Part shown: positions 25,285 to 35,845 of the stretch, in pieces | Layout: each line of letters starts with the position of its first letter | Position numbering within the stretch: the stretch's first letter is position 1 | Source: a marine group bacterium Sva0996 bin134 | Lineage (GTDB): Bacteria > Actinomycetota > Acidimicrobiia > Acidimicrobiales > Bin134 | DNA: 64,000 bases | Assembly: GCA_002239105.1 (NCBI GenBank) | Contig: MPNQ01000001.1 | Span: 186,001 to 250,000 of the forward strand | Direction of reading: 5' to 3' | The notes under the pieces: generated by a model | Seen by the model: the letters and a program-made list of their open reading frames with translations, nothing else | Told to the model about the DNA's origin: nothing | Databases searched by the model: none | Position numbers and translations under genes: made by a program

Positions 25285-26064
25285 CTACTGCTGCTCGACG
25301 TCGGCGGAGAACTCGTTGGCCACCTCGGGTTCAGGTGATCGCAATAGAAGCGACTCGATTCCGAACGTGGGGGCGGCGAATAAGGCGGCCATGAAGGAGA
25401 CCAATCCATGAGCAACCTCGTCGCCTTGCATGATCCCAGTGCGGAATCCCTGGCGCTGCCAGTGGGGTATGGCGGCTTCGAAGGCTTCGGGAGTGAACGA
25501 GTTGGCGAATTCGGTGGGCATGGTGGGCCCCAAGATGACGGTGACAAACCGGCGGTTGCCCAGCATCTCGGTGCGCCATCCGTCCATGGTCGCTTCCAGG
25601 GCTCGCTTGGAGGCGGCGTAGGGGACCAGCGAGTGGCGGGGCATCGAGGAGGAGTCTGAGGACACTGCGGCCACTACCGAGTCCTCGCTGAGATGGGGGA
25701 GGGCGGCCTTGATGATCAGGTTCGGTCCAAACGTGTTGACTCCGAAGACCGCTTGCCAGTCCTCTTGGGTCAGCTCGGCCATCGGCGCCATAGGAGACAT
25801 GCCCGAGGTGTAGACGATGCCGTCGAGGCCACCGAGCACTTCGGCGGCCTCGGCCACCCCGTGTTCGATGCTTAAGGGGTCGAGGGTGTCGATGACCACG
25901 ACGTGGCCGCCTTCGGCCTCTTCCACTGCGGCCTCCAGCACGTCGCGCCGTCGGGCGGCAAACGCTACGTGGGCACCGAGGCGCTGAAGCGCGATGGCGG
26001 TTGCCCGACCTAGACCTGATGAGGCCCCTACCACCAGGACTCTGCGCTCACTCAGTGCTTCCAT
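25285..26064 (-). CDS. Short-chain dehydrogenase/reductase
   Basis: This SDR has about 259 residues: cofactor motif VVGASSGLGRATA, NAG-like region IVYTSGMSP, catalytic Ser in AVSSDSSS and active-site YAASK. It is NAD(P)-dependent. Its start overlaps the end of the SRPBCC gene by about 17 nt, and the hydrolase follows it, so the three form one operon. A start 15 nt upstream is possible. The substrate is not assigned. Confidence 0.9.
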   Translation of the reverse strand: MEALSERRVLVVGASSGLGRATAIALQRLGAHVAFAARRRDVLEAAVEEAEGGHVVVIDTLDPLSIEHGVAEAAEVLGGLDGIVYTSGMSPMAPMAELTQEDWQAVFGVNTFGPNLIIKAALPHLSEDSVVAAVSSDSSSMPRHSLVPYAASKRALEATMDGWRTEMLGNRRFVTVILGPTMPTEFANSFTPEAFEAAIPHWQRQGFRTGIMQGDEVAHGLVSFMAALFAAPTFGIESLLLRSPEPEVANEFSADVEQQ

Positions 26065-26845
26065 CTGCTCCCCCTCCAAGGGCCTCGGCTAGCCAATTCT
26101 GCCAGAGGGGTCCGTCCCGCTCGGCGGCCTCGGCCCCGCCGGCCCCGTAAAGGTACAGCCACACCGACGCCCCGGCGTGTTCGCCGTAGGACTCCACGGT
26201 AATGAATGCGGTGCCCGGCGCAGGCTGGTCGAGCAACAGAGCAATTCTCCACGTTGCGGCATCCACCACCGTCCCGGCCAGCGGGGGAGCTTTAGGGGCG
26301 TTGACGTCGATCCGCTCGCCTGTGGCCGGAGCAGCCTGGATCCCCAGCGCGTCGGTGAGCACAGCCCAGGCCTCATCCCGGGAACCGGCCCACATCCCCA
26401 CGGGCAGCACCGACGCTGCGGTCTGACCGGCAAAGTGCTCCATGTGCAGCTTGAGATTGAACAGGAACAACCCCCAGCCCTCCACCATCCCGTCGTACTG
26501 GGCGTCCCACTCGCCGCCCTGGCCGAACCCGGTATTCACCAGCCGAACCACGCACCGGTCGTCCCCCCGAGGCTCCACCGTCCACTCGAACGCCAGTCCC
26601 TCCACCCCCTCGCCGCCGTCGAAGCAAACCCGCCGAGGCGGCTCCCACACCGCTACCCGCCCCGGAATCTGCATATCCGGCCCCGGCCCAAACGAGGCCA
26701 TGGCCGATCCCCCTGCGCGCTCCTCCACAGTGTGGGGCACATACCAAGAGGAAATCCCCGGTCCCGTAGCCACCGCCCGCCACACCTCCTCCGGCGTCCC
26801 GGGAACCACTACATCCAGCTCAATCGAGCGCCGCTCTTCAGCCAT
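26048..26845 (-). CDS. SRPBCC/AHSA1-domain protein
   Basis: This protein has about 265 residues. The first half is an AHSA1/START-like domain (IELDVVVPGTPEEVWRAVATGPGISSWYVPH; RVCFDGGEGVEGLAFEWTVEP; LVNTGFG). The second half is a smaller domain of unknown type. SRPBCC proteins bind hydrophobic ligands. Gene order suggests a role with the SDR and hydrolase. It begins about 50 nt after the helicase gene ends on the same strand, so read-through from the putative defence operon is possible. Confidence 0.8.
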   Translation of the reverse strand: MAEERRSIELDVVVPGTPEEVWRAVATGPGISSWYVPHTVEERAGGSAMASFGPGPDMQIPGRVAVWEPPRRVCFDGGEGVEGLAFEWTVEPRGDDRCVVRLVNTGFGQGGEWDAQYDGMVEGWGLFLFNLKLHMEHFAGQTAASVLPVGMWAGSRDEAWAVLTDALGIQAAPATGERIDVNAPKAPPLAGTVVDAATWRIALLLDQPAPGTAFITVESYGEHAGASVWLYLYGAGGAEAAERDGPLWQNWLAEALGGGADGSTE

Positions 26846-26895
26846 GGCCCAAACCATAGAAGCAGTAAGCAGCCAAAGGTGACCTGCTAGGTCTT

Positions 26896-29800
26896 TCAGG
26901 CAATTGCCCCTGAGTTTGGTGGCGACAGGTCGATGCGAAGTCTTGAGGCGAGCATCAGCAGGTCCGCGTCGGAACGGTCGGCTCCAAGGAACTCGACCAA
27001 CTCTTCTTGTCGGGGTTGGCCAAACGCGAGGCGGTACGCGGCTAGCGTTTTGCGCAACTGAGGCAGGGCCGCTGCGTCGCGGCTGAAGGGCATGACTGGC
27101 ACATGGCGTTCGATCTTCGCCGGTCCCTGGTGGAACACCCAGTACGGCACCATCTCACCATCGGCAGCCGGACTCTTCGACACTGCCAAGGCGAAGAGCT
27201 CGCTCCAAGGATCCACACCTGTGGCTAGTTTGTTGGCAACCAAGTCCTGACCCAGGCTCACGGCTATGTTCCGCCGTACGGCATGGCCCTTGTACCTGTG
27301 AACGCGCCCTTCGCGCTGCTCCAAGTCAACAGGGTTAGAAGGAAGATTCCAGTGAACGACGGCGTGACACCAGAGATGAAAGTCCAGCCCCTCTTGCCCG
27401 ACCGAAGTAGAGGTGAGAACAAAGGGCCAAAATGGGGAGTTGAACGCTTTGGAGACAGACTCGACCCGGGCCTCGCCGCCCCCGTCAAGTGCCTGGTTGC
27501 CGAAGGCGACAGCGAAGCGAGTACGCATCCGGTGTTCTTCCAACTCAACGTCGTGGCCGTTCTCTTTCCGGCTGGGGATGTCCACTCGGTATGAAGAAGT
27601 GCGAAGTTCTAGGGCTTCAGCGACTGCGAGCGCTATGTCGGCGGCTGCTGCTACACATTGGTCGTCGTCTCCCAAACTCAAATAGCCGAGCCAGTCCCGA
27701 AGCACATGAGCATGCTCGTCGAGGACGGCTTGAAGGTTGCCGTCAATCGAGTGTCGGACGACATCGCGCCAGTAGCGGCTTCTACTGTCGGCAGTGTCTG
27801 ATTCATCTAAGTTCCCGCTGATGATGGCTGTGACTTCCGGTGCGTTGAAGAAGCTCCTGAACGCAGCACCGACCCTTGCAGCGTTCAACAAGGTCTGGTC
27901 GTGAGAGATCGGGAGACCAGCGACCGAACTGATCATCCGCGACGCGCATTGTGCAGGTCCGCCGATCGCGAGTTCAGCGAGCACTTCGATGAGGTCATCA
28001 GGAGGGCGTCCGAGAACCTCAGGTCCATGCATGACCATCGACTTTGCTTCTTCAAGGTGTGCGCGGAGTCCGTCCCCGGGTAGATCGCCTTCCCAGTGGT
28101 CGGCGCGGCCACGGGCGAGCAATCGATGAGTTGCCGACGGATAGTGCTCCTTGTCGAGCAGCAAGGGCGCGGCCCAGTACCACCTTTGGTCAACGACGCC
28201 GTCCGTGGGCGCAAATCGACGAAGCGGTTCGAGAGCTCCTTCCACCTGAGATGCAACATTGGCAAGTACGTCTGAGAGTTGGCGGCGTTCCACCTGTGCC
28301 TGCGGCCGGGGGTCGCCGAGCTCAGCGAGGCTCGGACTCGGCCAGATGAGGAGAAACGAAGTCATCGCCGCGGCTCGGCGGGCACCAGATGACTCTCCTG
28401 GCCTGGCTTCACCGGTTGAGCGCTCGCTGGTACGAAAGGCAAGGCGCTGGCCGCCACGTCTCCGGTAGTCAGCCGTGTAGCCATGGCTGCGTCCGGCGAA
28501 GGCGCGGCGTTCGGCCTCGAAACTGACCAGCGACGAGACGACCTTTGGCACGACAGCCCAGCCTGAGAAGATCAGCCGCTTCGTGAAGCTGGCAGTTTCC
28601 GGTGCCTCGTACACCGATCCGGTTTCGTAGTACCGCATCGAGGGGGGTATCCAGAGCAGCTCGAAGGCGCGGTGGCGCTCCAGATCATCGAGTAGCCAAC
28701 GAAGTCGCCCGTTCTGGGGGTCAATGCGCTTATATGCCTCGACGTTGTCCCATCTCAGCAGGCCAGGGCCAGGATCGAGCTCTCCGCTGTCGGCGAACCG
28801 TCCGTCCGCTGAGGCCTGCATGACGGCCTCCTTCAGCTTGTACCGCTCCATGAAGTTGACGAGATATGGCCCGGACTTCCAGTACTCCGTGGGTTCGTGG
28901 TGGTCCACGGTCTCGGCGAGGTCGCCGAAGCGCAGATAGGCGCGAAGGTCATCGGGTTTCACCGGCACTTGGGTGTCCGGCTCTTTGAGCATTCCGTCTC
29001 GGTTTGGCGTGGCCGCCAATCGCTCTGTTCGTGCCATCACGCCGCGCAACTCGGCCCCGATGTCGCCGCAGATCACCTCAGCGTTGCCGAGCGACTCGGC
29101 TGAGGTGAGCGCCGACCGGAGCGCACTGAAACGATTCCGCAGCCGATCGATTTTCGCTGGGTCCTGAAACAGGAATGAACAGGTGTCGAGGAAGTCCGCG
29201 TAGTGATCGCCTTCGACCTCGTCGGCAGTCGTGTACATGCGATATGGGGTTGCGGAGAGCAGCAGCGTTCGGGTGGGGCGGCCTGTCTCGGGGTCCTTGT
29301 GATCGAACAGCCGGTGGGCTAACTCGGTAGCGAAGTTTGCGGGATCAGGCTTGAGCAGGTCCTTGAAGCGTTGGAATTCGTCCAGCACCACGAGATCCGG
29401 CTGGAGCGCGGCGATGCCAACGATCGCCATGATGCGGCGCACCTCCCCGATCAGTTCCTTACGGTGCTCCTGCAAGTCGTCAGGAAACGTCCGCTTCCAC
29501 GCCAGCCCGTCGACAAGTTCGTCAAACAGCTCCCGAAGGGTCGGTCGGCCGTCGTGTCTTCGTGACTTGTCGACGTCAGTGAGCACTTCGCCGAAATCCC
29601 CAAGTGAACCTTTGATTGTCGACCGGTACTGCCGCTCCTCCCAACGCAGGCGCCCATCGGGGCCACCGGCGGTAATGCCTTCCCAGAAAATTCGCCGAGC
29701 GGGGGCCGTCATGGCGCTCGCACCCCAAAGGGCGCGCAGGAACGTGTACGCCAGACAGCGCTCGTTGAACCTGCCAGTACTGCGACCGAACTTGAGGGAT

Positions 29801-30198
29801 GTTCCGGGCGTGATCGCCAACAGATTGATGCCCGTCTGCATGCTGTCACCATCATTCAAATCAGCAAGGGGGAGCATGGTGAGCCGCTCGACATCATCAA
29901 GCGGCTCGATGCCCTTGGGGACGAGTTTGCGAAGGTTCTGTCGGGCGATCGCCGCGTTCGAGCAGACATAAACGATGTCGTGCCGCTCATCTCCGGTGCG
30001 ACGAAGGTGGTCGATGACTTGGGCAATCACGCCCTTGGCAACGTGGGTTTTGCCAAGACCGACTTCGTCGGCCACTAGGAACCGAATTGCGGGATCCCGG
30101 TCAGCGAACATCCGCTTGAATGCCCACTGGGCGGTTTGCCGCTGGAAGTCCTTCAGGTCGGTCAAGACTGCCTGGACATCGATGTTCTGCCCAGTCAT
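26896..30198 (-). CDS. Large SNF2/DEAD-like helicase of a DUF6361-PLD-helicase operon
   Basis: This 1100-residue ATPase has Walker A DEVGLGKT (Lys50), a DEFQRF Walker B near residue 272, the SATPYRMY motif III near 313, a motif IV-like IFSGW near 570 and a C-terminal SVGQEGLDFH...EQREGRVHRYKG (motifs V and VI, about 935-985). Long inserts separate the two RecA lobes. It resembles HepA/DrmD-type superfamily 2 translocases found in phage-defence islands. Its ATG overlaps the PLD stop (ATGA), giving obligatory coupling. A role moving along invader DNA for the PLD nuclease is inferred. Confidence 0.85.
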   Translation of the reverse strand: MTGQNIDVQAVLTDLKDFQRQTAQWAFKRMFADRDPAIRFLVADEVGLGKTHVAKGVIAQVIDHLRRTGDERHDIVYVCSNAAIARQNLRKLVPKGIEPLDDVERLTMLPLADLNDGDSMQTGINLLAITPGTSLKFGRSTGRFNERCLAYTFLRALWGASAMTAPARRIFWEGITAGGPDGRLRWEERQYRSTIKGSLGDFGEVLTDVDKSRRHDGRPTLRELFDELVDGLAWKRTFPDDLQEHRKELIGEVRRIMAIVGIAALQPDLVVLDEFQRFKDLLKPDPANFATELAHRLFDHKDPETGRPTRTLLLSATPYRMYTTADEVEGDHYADFLDTCSFLFQDPAKIDRLRNRFSALRSALTSAESLGNAEVICGDIGAELRGVMARTERLAATPNRDGMLKEPDTQVPVKPDDLRAYLRFGDLAETVDHHEPTEYWKSGPYLVNFMERYKLKEAVMQASADGRFADSGELDPGPGLLRWDNVEAYKRIDPQNGRLRWLLDDLERHRAFELLWIPPSMRYYETGSVYEAPETASFTKRLIFSGWAVVPKVVSSLVSFEAERRAFAGRSHGYTADYRRRGGQRLAFRTSERSTGEARPGESSGARRAAAMTSFLLIWPSPSLAELGDPRPQAQVERRQLSDVLANVASQVEGALEPLRRFAPTDGVVDQRWYWAAPLLLDKEHYPSATHRLLARGRADHWEGDLPGDGLRAHLEEAKSMVMHGPEVLGRPPDDLIEVLAELAIGGPAQCASRMISSVAGLPISHDQTLLNAARVGAAFRSFFNAPEVTAIISGNLDESDTADSRSRYWRDVVRHSIDGNLQAVLDEHAHVLRDWLGYLSLGDDDQCVAAAADIALAVAEALELRTSSYRVDIPSRKENGHDVELEEHRMRTRFAVAFGNQALDGGGEARVESVSKAFNSPFWPFVLTSTSVGQEGLDFHLWCHAVVHWNLPSNPVDLEQREGRVHRYKGHAVRRNIAVSLGQDLVANKLATGVDPWSELFALAVSKSPAADGEMVPYWVFHQGPAKIERHVPVMPFSRDAAALPQLRKTLAAYRLAFGQPRQEELVEFLGADRSDADLLMLASRLRIDLSPPNSGAIA

Positions 30199-32000
30199 CG
30201 CGCCACGGCTCCTTCGATCGCTACGTCATAGATCATCGTCCACAGTTCGGCGAAGCCCGGCGGGAGGGCATCATCGGCGGCCAGGTCCGTGACGAGCGGG
30301 TGGAGCCCGGCGAGCTTCGCAGGGTCTCGTCGCATCGTTTTCAGCAACTTCTCCAACACTGGGAGGTTCAGAGGACCGTTCCCGCCGTCGGCAGTGTCTT
30401 CGCCTGCGCCATTGACCGCGTCGAGAAGGTCCATTTGGCCCGAGTCCTCGTTGAGCAACGCCAAGAGGTAACGAAGAAAGCGCTCTGCATTCCCGACCAG
30501 GGCTCGCAAGAGGAACCGCTCGCGGTGCTCGGGCACACCGACTAGCGGGACCGGGACGACGAAGAAGGTAAGTGTGCCGTCCTCGTGAGCAAGCTCGAAG
30601 GCGAGGAAACCGCTGATGGTCTCGAGGCTGGTTTCAAAACGCGCCTCCAAAGGCTCACCCGTGGCCACTCGTCGCCGATTTCCGGCGGATGCGAGCGGCC
30701 AGCAGTGGATCTCCGTGCTGTCGAGGAAGGGCAGCGGTTTGCGCGACTGGTAGGTGACGGCCCATCCGGTGCCGCTCTCCTCGACGATCCCCTCGATGGG
30801 AAGTCGAGCGATGGCGCAGCGTGCGCTATCGAGCGACGCCGCTTCGGGCGGATCTGTAGGAGGGTCAGGTCTGTAGGTATTGAACAAGTCCCGGAGGCTC
30901 GGCTCGTCCATCGTGCCGTTGCAGAGCTTGTCGATTCCCAGCACCGCTGCGGGTCCGGTCAGTTCAACGAGGATCTCGACATTGCTGTTGAACGCGGCAC
31001 CGGTCGCGTTCGCGGACCCCACAAAGAGGCGGGCTCGGCCCCTATCCTCGAAGGCGAAGACCTTGGCATGCAGTCCAACTAGGGGACGGCCGGGGTCGTG
31101 GGGCGATGATCGTTCTGCCTCAGTTGCGAGATCGACTGCGCTCCCGTCGTCGAAGGTGTACACCTTGGCCACCTTGTCGAGAGCGCCAGGCCCGAGGTGG
31201 TCGAGGGACTCCGCCCTGCTGACGAGTTCGTCTATTGGTGCCGGGCGCACTCTCTGGAAGAAGTCGTCGCTCACGAAGGGTGAGATGATCAGCGACCGTT
31301 CGGCGCTAGCAGGCAGTGGCGAGGGCTTTCTGGAGAGGCCCAGCACATGGGTCTCCAGATGATCCACACCCACTGGCAAAGCAAATTTCGCTGTCTGAAG
31401 CGCAGCTGACAGCGAGTGGACACGCTGTCGGTGATCTACCGAGACGTCGCTGACCGCAGCGTCGAGGAGACCTTCAAACAGGTCCCCTACAGGTTCCAAC
31501 AGTGCGCCGGTCGAATCCCTTGCCTCGTCCAGGCGGACAACAGTGTCCCAACTTGTATCGAACGTGAGATTCCGGCTGGCGATAAGTACCCGGAGCCGCT
31601 GCTCCCGTGGTTGGCTGTCTATTGGCTTGTCAACAGCCTCGTAGCGAAGCACCCACACCTTGGGGTGAACGACGCCGCCGCGTGGAGCAACAACGGGCAC
31701 AACCGCCCGCTCAAGGAAGGCGAACACCCGGCGGGAGGGTGGTAGGGCGATTTCACCCACTTGGCTGAACACGGTGATCTTGCCGGCGTGGGAACGCAGA
31801 GCATGTAGCAGCTCGATGGGCTCGTGTTGGCTCCCGTCGGAGGCGAGGTTGTCGTGTCCCGCGAGCGCAAACGCAGCAGGCGCCGCTAAGAGCGCTCGAA
31901 GGTCGAGCGTGAACGTGACAGCCATGGCCGATTCCAAGCCGAAGGCGACCGGAGGTCTCATGGCGTCGATGAGGGTGAGCCGGTTTGTGGGTTGCAGCAT
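30195..32000 (-). CDS. Phospholipase D-family nuclease of the defence-like operon
   Basis: This protein has about 601 residues and two PLD-type half-sites: HPK near residue 110 followed by IASRNLTFD, and HAK near residue 311 followed by FVGSANATG. The paired HxK/SxN arrangement supports an active bilobed phosphodiesterase. The Asp of a strict HKD is replaced by Glu-Asp after the second HxK. ATG 32000 overlaps the DUF6361 stop (TGATG). Such PLD proteins accompany helicases in DISARM-like and restriction-like systems, where they cut nucleic acid. Confidence 0.82.
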   Translation of the reverse strand: MLQPTNRLTLIDAMRPPVAFGLESAMAVTFTLDLRALLAAPAAFALAGHDNLASDGSQHEPIELLHALRSHAGKITVFSQVGEIALPPSRRVFAFLERAVVPVVAPRGGVVHPKVWVLRYEAVDKPIDSQPREQRLRVLIASRNLTFDTSWDTVVRLDEARDSTGALLEPVGDLFEGLLDAAVSDVSVDHRQRVHSLSAALQTAKFALPVGVDHLETHVLGLSRKPSPLPASAERSLIISPFVSDDFFQRVRPAPIDELVSRAESLDHLGPGALDKVAKVYTFDDGSAVDLATEAERSSPHDPGRPLVGLHAKVFAFEDRGRARLFVGSANATGAAFNSNVEILVELTGPAAVLGIDKLCNGTMDEPSLRDLFNTYRPDPPTDPPEAASLDSARCAIARLPIEGIVEESGTGWAVTYQSRKPLPFLDSTEIHCWPLASAGNRRRVATGEPLEARFETSLETISGFLAFELAHEDGTLTFFVVPVPLVGVPEHRERFLLRALVGNAERFLRYLLALLNEDSGQMDLLDAVNGAGEDTADGGNGPLNLPVLEKLLKTMRRDPAKLAGLHPLVTDLAADDALPPGFAELWTMIYDVAIEGAVAR

Positions 32001-33226
32001 CAGACTCCCGGCCTCGCCGCAGCAATATCTGCAAGATAGCTCTTGGTGATGGGCCACCGGTAGTTGAGTTGACCGCCGACCGGTGCCTGATTCCAGTTCT
32101 CCAGGGAGGCTCGGTGGGCCAGTCGGGCTCGCTTCGACTTGAGTCGGATCTCTCGGTCACGGATGTGTCCGTGGATCACTTTGTCCTTTGCGAACACCGC
32201 AGGGTTGTCCACTGCTCGCGCCACCATGAGTGTGATGAATTCCTGAGTGCCACCGCTGACGCCATGTCCGGCTAAGAAGCTCCAGAACTCGGGGAGGTCA
32301 TTGACCCAGGAGCGAAGCTCCTCATACCGCTCGGCTATCAGATGGACCCAGTCGTTGAGATGGGCGAGTTCGCGCCCTTCGAGTTCGCCGGTGTCCCAGC
32401 CGAACTCCTCTCTCGCCTTGCGCGCGAGAAGGATGTTGTAGACGTGCTGTGGGCCGACGGTCAGCTCGGAAAAGCAGCGGGCGTGGCGCAGAACCTCAAC
32501 GAGTTGGTCGGGTAGCCCATCAGTTGGCAGATCCCACGGGTAGTCGACATTGGTCGAACCGTCCGCCATTCCGCACAAGACGGCCAACAGCGTGCCTTTG
32601 TGACGCCACTGGATGTGATCAACCAAGACCTGGGCCTCGTCAGGACGAAGGTCGAAGGTGCCGTCGCTTTCTAGGAAGCCCTCGGGTGGTGGAGGGATGC
32701 CTGCCCACATCGACACCCTTCGATCCGTCGCATTTGCGTCGTCATCGCGTTCAGGCCGGAGTCGACCAAGGGCGGCTGCCCGCTTTCCGTATTCGGCGAG
32801 GCTGAGGTCGAGCCGTCTCAGACCCCAGGTACCCAAACCGCCCCAGTAGGCCGCGCTTGGCATGCGTTTGAGATCTCGGCCCGCGGTGTAGCCGATCACG
32901 CCTTGGTTCGGCCCCAAATGACGGAGGCAGTCGATGAGCCGTGCCTCGTCTTCACGGAGCCTGCTGGCAAATTCGTTCGGAGGGACCTGCTGAGCCTCAA
33001 GGCGGGCAAAGATCCATGGCAAAAAGATGAAGTAGCGAAGCCTGGTTTGGATCGTTGAAGTGCCTGGGCTCAGCATCTCCGAAAAGGCATCGCGCACAAC
33101 ACCCAATCCCAGTACGTCGAGTGTCCCGGGCTCTTCGAGCGAACGGAGCAGCGTGCCCACTTGTTCGCTTGCGGTTGCATCCAGATCGAGCCAGCCAAGT
33201 GACGACGCTGGCACGTAAGTACTCAT
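32000..33226 (-). CDS. DUF6361-like protein
   Basis: This protein has about 408 residues. Its early portion (SSLGWLDLDATASEQV; LGLGVVRDAFSEMLSPGTSTIQTRLRYFIFLPWIF) matches what I recall of DUF6361, whose function is unknown. There is no catalytic motif, signal peptide or transmembrane helix. It is the first gene of the DUF6361-PLD-helicase unit and overlaps the PLD start by one base. A nucleic-acid-binding or sensing role is inference from context. The ATG at 33226 is chosen over an upstream GTG/ATG extension that is Pro/Gly-rich. Confidence 0.7.
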   Translation of the reverse strand: MSTYVPASSLGWLDLDATASEQVGTLLRSLEEPGTLDVLGLGVVRDAFSEMLSPGTSTIQTRLRYFIFLPWIFARLEAQQVPPNEFASRLREDEARLIDCLRHLGPNQGVIGYTAGRDLKRMPSAAYWGGLGTWGLRRLDLSLAEYGKRAAALGRLRPERDDDANATDRRVSMWAGIPPPPEGFLESDGTFDLRPDEAQVLVDHIQWRHKGTLLAVLCGMADGSTNVDYPWDLPTDGLPDQLVEVLRHARCFSELTVGPQHVYNILLARKAREEFGWDTGELEGRELAHLNDWVHLIAERYEELRSWVNDLPEFWSFLAGHGVSGGTQEFITLMVARAVDNPAVFAKDKVIHGHIRDREIRLKSKRARLAHRASLENWNQAPVGGQLNYRWPITKSYLADIAAARPGV

Positions 33227-33617
33227 CAACTTGATGCCCCTACCGCTCGGTGTCTTCTCCCTTGGCCCATCCGGGGGAGTTTGCCCCCCAAAATCAGACA
33301 GCTCCATTCAGTCCTACACCGACGACATGCTCGAACGGATCGTGAAAGGCTCTCGGGCGGCATGGCATGAATGCGGTGGGAGGCCATTGTTTGGTCACCG
33401 CCGACCGCAAGATCACCCAATGGGCCGAGCCCACTCGTCTTCTTGGTGTCATCGGCCCCTTGCCCTAGTGGGATCACCCTGGCTGCCTCATCAACCATAG
33501 GTGGAATGTAAGCCATGTTGCTTGAGTTCAAATGAGTACCAATCAAATCTAAGATACATTCGCCTATACAAATTGATTCTGGTAGATGCTGTCACCGACG
33601 CCGGTATACTTGCATGC
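33227..33617. other. 391-bp intergenic region, AT-rich on its right side
   Basis: This gap separates the minus-strand defence-like operon from the plus-strand HNH gene. The left part reads as possible coding debris: one plus frame gives TDDMLERIVKGSRAAWHE (around 33310-33380), and after a frame change another gives VTADRKITQWAEPTRLL ending in a stop at about 33468. The right part (33500-33600) is near 40 per cent GC. It ends in a TATACT -10 box before the HNH gene. No intact gene is supported. Confidence 0.4.
33605..33610 (+). promoter_or_regulatory. -10 box of the HNH gene; leaderless start
   Basis: TATACT lies 7 nt before the ATG at 33618, which would place transcription at the first base of the start codon. 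No ribosome-binding site precedes the ATG. The same geometry is seen at vapB. Confidence 0.45.
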
Positions 33618-34889
33618 ATGAAGTTTATGGCCCTTGAACAGGGAGAACGGGCTGCTGGCGAGCTGTCTGCCCCCACTTGGCCGGAGGCGGTTGATGTAAA
33701 CGTTTTGTCATTGTTGGAGCTGCGAGCGCGGTTGGGATTGATAAAGCGAGCTGAGGCCCGCCTGGCTGCGATGAAGACAACCACGCTGGCTGCGTACACC
33801 AATCGCTGGGGCGAGGGATTGGCCCGTAGGGTGGCCTTGGAAGAGCTTCAGGCCTCCAAGCAGCAAGCTCGCCGGGAGGTCGAGGCTGCCTCTCAGCTCT
33901 CTCGGGTTCCCGAAACCCTCGACGCGCTAGGCGCAGGAGAAATTCCTGAGGGCCATGCCAAGCAGATCGCCAAAGCTGCCTCCCGGGGTCCGGTCGACGA
34001 AACCGTGCTGGTGGAGGCGGCCCGTCGCGAAGACTTTGGCACCTTTTCCCGGACTCTGCGAGACCACCAGCACCAACAATCCGACGACGGCGGAAAATCA
34101 CTGTTCGAAAAGCAGCGGGAGCGACGGTCGATCAACTTCTTCAAGTCGCCCGACGACGGCATGTTCATCCTGAACGGCCGGTTCGACCCGCTGGCGGGTA
34201 ACAAGATCGAGGCCGCATTGGCCGCCGAAGAGCGTCGACTGCGCAAAGACGACAAAGCAGGCGAACAAGCCGCATTCGACCAGCGGCTCGCCGATGCGTT
34301 GGAGAATTTGGTTTGTGCCGATTCCCGCGACAGCAGACCCCAGGGCACCACGCTGGTCTTGACCGCGGAGTGGGACATGGTCAACAACCAGATTGCTGAT
34401 GTCCGTCTGCCCGACGGGGACCAGCTGCCTATGTCTGAGGCCCTGCTGCTGGCTTGCAACGCCGACATTCTGCCCTGCGTGTTCAACACCAAGAATCAGG
34501 AACTCTGGGTGGGACGCAAGCACCGGTTGGCCACCGAAGCCCAGCGGGCCGCGCTCATCATCCGGGACAAGCACTGCATCGGATGCGGGCGATCCGCCGT
34601 CTGGTGCGAGGCCCACCACATCGATGAGTGGTCCAAGGGTGGCCGTACCGACATCGACAACCTGGTCTTGGTGTGTACGAGCTGCCACCACAACATCCAT
34701 GACGGCGGCTGGGAAGTACACCGGACAAGCGGCAGTGCCTACGAACTCAGACCGCCGCCCAGACCCTACGCCCACCTGCAACCGTGGCGATCCAGACCCG
34801 ACACGCCCTCTCAAGAGCCCGACCCATTCCCCGAAACAGGAATCAGCACTGGACACCCTGCCAACCGCCAACCGGTACTTCTGAGCTGA
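33618..34889 (+). CDS. HNH endonuclease, DUF222/13E12-type protein
   Basis: This protein has about 423 residues. The N-terminal helical region (ELRARLGLIKRAEARLAAM...; GEIPEGHAKQIAKAA) is the DUF222/13E12-repeat type, and the C-terminus carries an HNH zinc fold: CIGCG...CEAHHIDEWSKGG...DNLVLVCTSCHHNIHDGGW. These proteins are multicopy in many Actinomycetota and may be mobile or selfish; their cutting target is not defined. The ATG is read off a -10 box 7 nt upstream. It starts in an AT-rich patch beside the defence-like operon, consistent with acquisition. Confidence 0.85.
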   Translation: MKFMALEQGERAAGELSAPTWPEAVDVNVLSLLELRARLGLIKRAEARLAAMKTTTLAAYTNRWGEGLARRVALEELQASKQQARREVEAASQLSRVPETLDALGAGEIPEGHAKQIAKAASRGPVDETVLVEAARREDFGTFSRTLRDHQHQQSDDGGKSLFEKQRERRSINFFKSPDDGMFILNGRFDPLAGNKIEAALAAEERRLRKDDKAGEQAAFDQRLADALENLVCADSRDSRPQGTTLVLTAEWDMVNNQIADVRLPDGDQLPMSEALLLACNADILPCVFNTKNQELWVGRKHRLATEAQRAALIIRDKHCIGCGRSAVWCEAHHIDEWSKGGRTDIDNLVLVCTSCHHNIHDGGWEVHRTSGSAYELRPPPRPYAHLQPWRSRPDTPSQEPDPFPETGISTGHPANRQPVLLS

Positions 34890-34941
34890 ACACGGTGCTT
34901 ACCGGGGCACGACCGCAGCTTCCAGCATGAACTCCAACTCC

Positions 34942-35042
34942 TACTCCTGAGCTTTGAGAAAATCGACCGTTTGTATGTATGGGCAGCAGTCGGCGCGACA
35001 GCCATTCCATACTCCTGAGCTAAGAGAATCGACCGTTGGTAT
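34942..35042. repeat. Two 33-35 bp direct repeats before the PhyH gene
   Basis: Copies at 34942-34976 and 35010-35042 both read TACTCCTGAGCT, then GAGAA..., then TCGACCGTT(T/G)GTAT, differing by a 2-nt indel and three substitutions. A third short match, TACTTCTGAGCT, occurs at 34876-34887 in the end of the HNH gene, giving a near-regular 66-68 bp period. The second copy ends at the TATATT box just before the PhyH ATG. It may be a duplicated promoter/operator or a decayed tandem unit. Confidence 0.6.
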
Positions 35043-35053
35043 ATTTCTTGGCG

Positions 35054-35845
35054 ATGGGGTTGACGGAGTCTCAGCGGGCGAGCTGGGAAGAGAACGGGTT
35101 CTTTATTGAGCGGGGGTTCGCTGATCAGGAGACCACCGACGCCATGATCGAGCGGATTGTAGAGATCGCCCGGGCTAACGCCGCCGGGGAGTCGCGGCCT
35201 GATCTGTTCATCACTCCCGACAAGACGAACGAGAATCCGGCCACTCCAGAGGTGGGCGTTTCCAAGATCTTTCGGGTGATGCGGGCTGAGCCGGTGTTCC
35301 ATGAATTCGCCACCAATACCGGGCTGTTGTCGATGATGGGCGATCTCATCGGTCCCGATGTGGACTGCTTTTTGTCGCAGTTCATCTTCAAGCACCCCGG
35401 CACCCTCGGCCAGCCTTGGCACCAAGACGACTACTACTTCCGCATGACACCTTTGCCCCAGGTGGGGGTGTGGCTGGCCTGCACGGCGGCCACCATGGAC
35501 AACGGGCCGCTGTGGGTCGTCCCCGGCTCCAATGCCGAGCCGATCCACGACGCCGTGCCTGACACCCGGGAGGGCGCTGGGCTGGCTTACGTCGAGATAG
35601 TCGACGTCGCCACCGACAACGAGCAGGTTGTCCTCATGGAACCGGGCGATCTGCTGGTGTTCCACTCCCACCTGCGCCACCGGTCTACTGACAACCTCAC
35701 CGATGGGATGCGGGCGGCCATGGTGTACCACTACGCAGCAGCCAATTCAGAGGGCTACCTCGCCTTCAACCAGGACTGGACCGAGGTTCTGCGCGCCGGC
35801 CACCCGGTGCAGGCGCCCACCGAGCCGGTGCCCATCGAATACTGA
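35054..35845 (+). CDS. Phytanoyl-CoA dioxygenase (PhyH)-family oxygenase
   Basis: This protein has about 263 residues. The Fe(II)/2-oxoglutarate facial triad appears as HQDD (His123, Asp125) with a distal His in the VFHSHLRHRSTDN segment, and an Arg there to bind the co-substrate carboxylate. NGPLWVVPGSN is the PhyH-typical strand between them. It would hydroxylate a lipid or small molecule. ATG 35054 is preferred to a TTG 18 nt upstream. It is monocistronic and convergent with a GH10 gene. Confidence 0.9.
   Translation: MGLTESQRASWEENGFFIERGFADQETTDAMIERIVEIARANAAGESRPDLFITPDKTNENPATPEVGVSKIFRVMRAEPVFHEFATNTGLLSMMGDLIGPDVDCFLSQFIFKHPGTLGQPWHQDDYYFRMTPLPQVGVWLACTAATMDNGPLWVVPGSNAEPIHDAVPDTREGAGLAYVEIVDVATDNEQVVLMEPGDLLVFHSHLRHRSTDNLTDGMRAAMVYHYAAANSEGYLAFNQDWTEVLRAGHPVQAPTEPVPIEY

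Follow-up and report, generated by a model that had tools for sequence, protein, structure and literature searches.

Azaca (ZacA-ZacB-ZacC) was named in 2022 by Millman et al., as cited in PMC10952713 and PMC12278908. PMC10952713 lists it as anti-phage and assigns it a PLD domain, and PMC12278908 gives ZacC as its SF1/SF2 helicase. It is enriched in Actinobacteria according to a further report, in which its mechanism is given as unknown (PMC10482375), and our own search of the literature found no paper on the mechanism of Azaca. Hachiman (HamAB) has been demonstrated to act through a DNA-damage-sensing helicase and a nuclease (PMC12278908). In DISARM an SNF2 helicase (DrmD) and a PLD nuclease (DrmC) belong to the same operon, and the PLD-type ATP-dependent restriction enzymes NgoAVII and SauUSI pair or fuse a PLD nuclease with an SF2 motor, both arrangements recalling the locus described here. 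SF2 proteins of the SNF2/RapA-like kind translocate along double-stranded DNA, whereas PLD nucleases of the HxK type need no metal to cut DNA and assemble their active site from two such motifs.

The window analysed is a stretch of 64,000 nucleotides from the draft genome (3.68 Mb in 77 contigs) of the marine group bacterium Sva0996 bin134. At positions 26896-33226 it holds three intact minus-strand genes, with frames open throughout:

32000..33226, minus strand: zacA, a DUF6361 protein of 408 aa, presumed to be the recognition or adaptor subunit
30195..32000, minus strand: zacB, a predicted PLD-type nuclease of 601 aa with two HxK motifs
26896..30198, minus strand: zacC, a predicted SF2 SNF2/RapA-like DNA translocase or helicase of 1100 aa

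At the zacA-zacB junction the stop and start codons have a single base in common (TGATG), and at the zacB-zacC junction they overlap by four (ATGA). Translational coupling is therefore likely, in keeping with a first-pass annotation of these letters that read the genes as made together. The same annotation put the trio forward as an under-described system, a proposal it would give up were the system already named, and this proved to be the case: PADLOC profiles match all three proteins end to end, for ZacA over residues 8-404 of 408 (E=1.2e-100), for ZacB over residues 1-593 of 601 (E=5e-142) and for ZacC over residues 6-1093 of 1100 (E=0). Pfam finds DUF6361 in ZacA (1.4e-51) and Helicase_C in ZacC. 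A ZacA (DUF6361) protein, a ZacB whose PLD domain is marked by its profile and two invariant HxK motifs, and a ZacC whose SF2 helicase domain is marked by its profile and five SF2 motifs are thus encoded by adjacent genes in the order A-B-C. The three proteins, their order, sizes and key motifs are the same as in Azaca, from which this copy differs in sequence divergence only, and in an insertion site particular to this lineage. We consider it virtually certain that the trio is Azaca (ZacABC), a system already named.

The catalytic motifs agree with this assignment. ZacB has its HxK motifs at H112/K114 (HPK) and H311/K313 (HAK); the first-pass annotation correctly saw two PLD motifs and placed the second histidine at 311, and its position for the first, His110, was off by two. 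The 1100-residue motor it described does carry an intact Walker motif with its lysine at K50, in ADEVGLGKT, and the further SF2 motifs LDEFQR, LSATP, TSVGQEGLDFH and EQREGRVHRYK, like ADEVGLGKT, are conserved in relatives, with about 600 residues separating motif III from motif V. Scans for promoters and terminators found none.

NCBIfam returned just weak, local matches to DrmD, DpdE, RapA and DrmC, far under the cut-offs. Might the operon then be a divergent DISARM or Dpd system rather than a separate type? ZacC does match the DrmD and DpdE profiles, and ZacB matches DrmC weakly (a local match, E 7.8e-6), but each of these matches is confined to some 50-80 residues, around motifs V-VI or around one HxK motif, and the scores (54 bits against 500-610) lie far below the curated cut-offs. 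Unlike DISARM, the insert lacks the DrmA and DrmB core, neither the three-gene insert nor its metabolic neighbours supply a methyltransferase DrmMI or DrmMII, and ZacA matches no DISARM protein; as for Dpd, DpdE scores 54 bits where the cut-off is 500, and no other dpd gene stands beside zacABC. The similarity to DrmD and DrmC being local only, we find a hidden DISARM or Dpd system scarcely credible.

Among 395 sampled genomes of the class, 21 (~5%) encode DUF6361, and within the genus the window genome alone does so (1 of 22). The order A-B-C is kept in every locus with a long enough contig and intact genes (22 relatives), which together with the full-length profile matches indicates that the trio is not a chance assembly, and all 16 ZacA relatives tested match DUF6361/ZacA only. 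Pairwise identity matrices of ZacA, ZacB and ZacC correlate at r 0.97-0.98 (Mantel p 0.001), so the trio evidently travels as a unit. The HxK and SF2 motifs are kept across sequences down to 27-38% identity, both HxK motifs of ZacB being invariant in the aligned relatives. ZacA relatives also reside on plasmids of Cronobacter, of rhizobia and of the archaeon Halomarina, the last with the full trio annotated in A-B-C order and with the same overlaps as in the window. One ZacA match lies in an unverified faecal phage scaffold; no relative turned up when viral contigs were scanned with a ZacA alignment. On a Rhizobium etli plasmid (L111:1-7901) Azaca adjoins a multiubiquitin-domain/ThiF operon and also lies beside a pair encoding a PD-(D/E)XK nuclease and a UvrD helicase.

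Frame breaks are apparent in zacC of one relative (L050:5610-8448) and in zacA of another (L054:4825-5723), through decay or assembly error. Such broken-looking relatives, if they are not assembly errors, would lend something to the view that the window operon is itself a decayed or non-functional relic. Against this, all three of its frames are open and it keeps 163 of the 164 columns that are invariant in relatives, departing at one, and we regard a relic as extremely improbable.

To place the operon in its genomic setting, the following features are needed:

26848..33375, no strand assigned: acquired segment with zacABC only, delimited by the breaks in blastn homology to L080, the closest congener, and to others
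33376..33468, plus strand: 3' remnant of vapC (PIN toxin), about 30 codons ending in a stop
33501-34889, plus strand: DUF222-HNH gene (Pfam PF02720 and PF01844)
33483..35023, plus strand: separate insertion holding the DUF222-HNH gene, judged to lie outside Azaca

In blastn alignments, homology to vapBC-type congeners breaks off at 26847 and picks up again at 33376, within vapC, the 6528-bp zacABC insert replacing vapB and all but the last fifth of vapC; the remnant retains 78% DNA identity to the congener over 107 bp. The closest congener has an intact PIN and Phd/YefM pair at the same site, and vapBC is likewise present in L084, L087 and L088. Congeners have the SRPBCC gene (26048-26857 in the window) and phyH (35036-35845) as neighbours, and what lies between the aligned flanks varies: about 45 bp in G397, G398 and G408; about 320-340 bp with a putative membrane protein of 85-100 aa in G383, G399, G400, G403 and G405; and about 880 bp with a Phd/YefM-PIN (vapBC) pair in G409, G401, G320 and G404, and probably the vapBC version also in G407, judging from its vapC match. 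The loci with this small putative membrane protein (~85-100 aa) in the SRPBCC-phyH gap are L083, L086, L089, L090 and L092. The empty site in congeners and the presence of Azaca in one of 22 genus genomes argue for lateral acquisition; on these alignments, Azaca is an acquisition of this lineage that replaced vapBC between two metabolic genes. The ends of the insert show no conspicuous terminal repeats, and the window contains no tRNA. The lower GC that had been remarked on is real and its extent only modest, the zac genes having 60.8-63.0 % GC and a GC3 of 0.69-0.72, compared with a GC3 of 0.78-0.84 in most neighbours.

The adjoining HNH gene, correctly noted at first pass, raises the question of whether the unit is a four-gene cassette with the DUF222-HNH gene as its fourth component. 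In its favour, the window, G388 (L046) and the Halomarina plasmid all have an HNH gene upstream of zacA in divergent orientation. Yet the vapC remnant sits between it and zacA in the window, the gene is missing from most zacABC relatives, and the G388 copy is 37% identical where its ZacA is 62% identical. Homology to congeners breaks off again at 33482 and is regained at 35024; the gene lies in the intervening 1541 bp, whereas the closest congener has only about 8 bp between the end of vapC and phyH. The source genome has 13 DUF222 genes, the family numbering at least 13 copies, with the same subfamily multicopy in congeners; copies elsewhere are ~70-75% identical. Given the ~8 bp in that congener and the multicopy family, the simplest reading is a second, separate insertion, and we judge a four-gene cassette most improbable. 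A place for the HNH gene within the system is thus unsupported. Several members of the DUF222-HNH family carry in-frame stops, and the family looks like a dispersed mobile or selfish one. Beside phyH, the right edge of the HNH insertion carries a 20-bp direct repeat (34957-34976 and 35023-35042, 90% identical), possibly a trace of the manner in which this element inserts.

Wider flanking genes encode an FAD oxidoreductase, an alpha/beta hydrolase, SDR, SRPBCC, PhyH, GH10 and TetR proteins and a branched-chain amino acid transporter, and PADLOC found no defence gene among them save one generic ABC-ATPase match. Because the neighbouring genes are metabolic, the window copy of Azaca is not in a classical defence island; some relatives do adjoin type I and IIG restriction enzymes and BREX/DISARM-like and Mokosh-like helicases. 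The defence role suggested at first pass is nonetheless probably correct, being predicted for this copy from its identity as Azaca: it probably protects against phage. An AAA_14-DUF4143 ATPase (PADLOC candidate PDC-S01) recurs near 7 loci; we rejected it as a possible accessory gene, since 1 to 24 copies per genome explain its frequent presence in the neighbourhood.

How the three proteins might work together can be approached from their families. ZacC would be the motor, ZacB the cutter and ZacA an adaptor or sensor. As a RapA/DrmD-like double-stranded DNA translocase, ZacC would load onto the invading DNA together with ZacA or by way of it and, as it moves along with the energy of ATP or stalls, would license ZacB to cut that DNA. 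The cut-and-translocate complex put forward at first pass is likewise a hypothetical assembly. The first-pass remark that no methyltransferase is present holds for the inserted segment, which has three genes only, and with none in the transferred unit discrimination is not expected to depend on any methylation by the system itself; the cue separating self from non-self would be a DNA structure, an end, a replication intermediate or a phage protein sensed by ZacA/ZacC. NgoAVII and SauUSI differ here, since they recognise specific sequences or modified bases via known domains, and no such domain was found in these proteins. This motor-guided cutting by ZacC, ZacA and ZacB stands, in our estimation, about an even chance of being right.

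Its main rival is a Hachiman-like mode of action, in which damaged, broken or replicating DNA is sensed and DNA is then destroyed in the infected cell: ZacC would keep ZacB inactive on intact DNA and free it at a damaged or single-stranded structure. Hachiman and Azaca share a parts list of a sensor helicase and a nuclease with no methyltransferase. The nuclease families differ, however, and no sequence relation was detected: the nearest profile relatives of ZacC are DrmD/DpdE/RapA-like and ZacB is PLD-like, neither the HamA nuclease nor the HamB helicase appears among the PADLOC profile matches, and nothing in Hachiman corresponds to the third protein, ZacA. We regard this mode as rather unlikely.

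Structure prediction covered ZacA and ZacB. Models built from five-sequence alignments were poor (mean pLDDT 52 and 49, respectively), fold searches with these poor models gave no match below E 0.001, and the PLD part of ZacB showed weak, non-significant fold matches to PLD-type restriction enzymes. The C-terminal part of ZacB is predicted to form a beta-sandwich followed by helices, its Ig/SoxZ-like matches at E 0.0085 coming from a low-confidence model on which we do not rely. PDB sequence and profile searches with the proteins yielded nothing useful. For ZacA no relative was detected in Pfam beyond DUF6361, nor in the PDB by sequence, which leaves room for a new recognition fold or principle. 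Although speculative, ZacA might represent a largely helical and so far uncharacterised type of subunit that recognises DNA or phage and through which a PLD nuclease discriminates self from non-self without DNA modification, a suggestion that we think distinctly doubtful. Gene content, intact catalytic motifs, conserved order, joint divergence and the empty site form the observed part of our best explanation, and in its entirety, as an intact Azaca operon that was acquired and inserted over vapBC and that would act by motor-guided cutting as proposed, we hold it with reasonable confidence.

The trio is thereby settled as Azaca and not an unknown system, an ordinary find in itself. The exact empty site offers a clean natural experiment. 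Across species of the genus one small slot is occupied by nothing, by a small membrane-protein gene, by vapBC or by Azaca, and the three zac genes on their own can make up the transferred unit.
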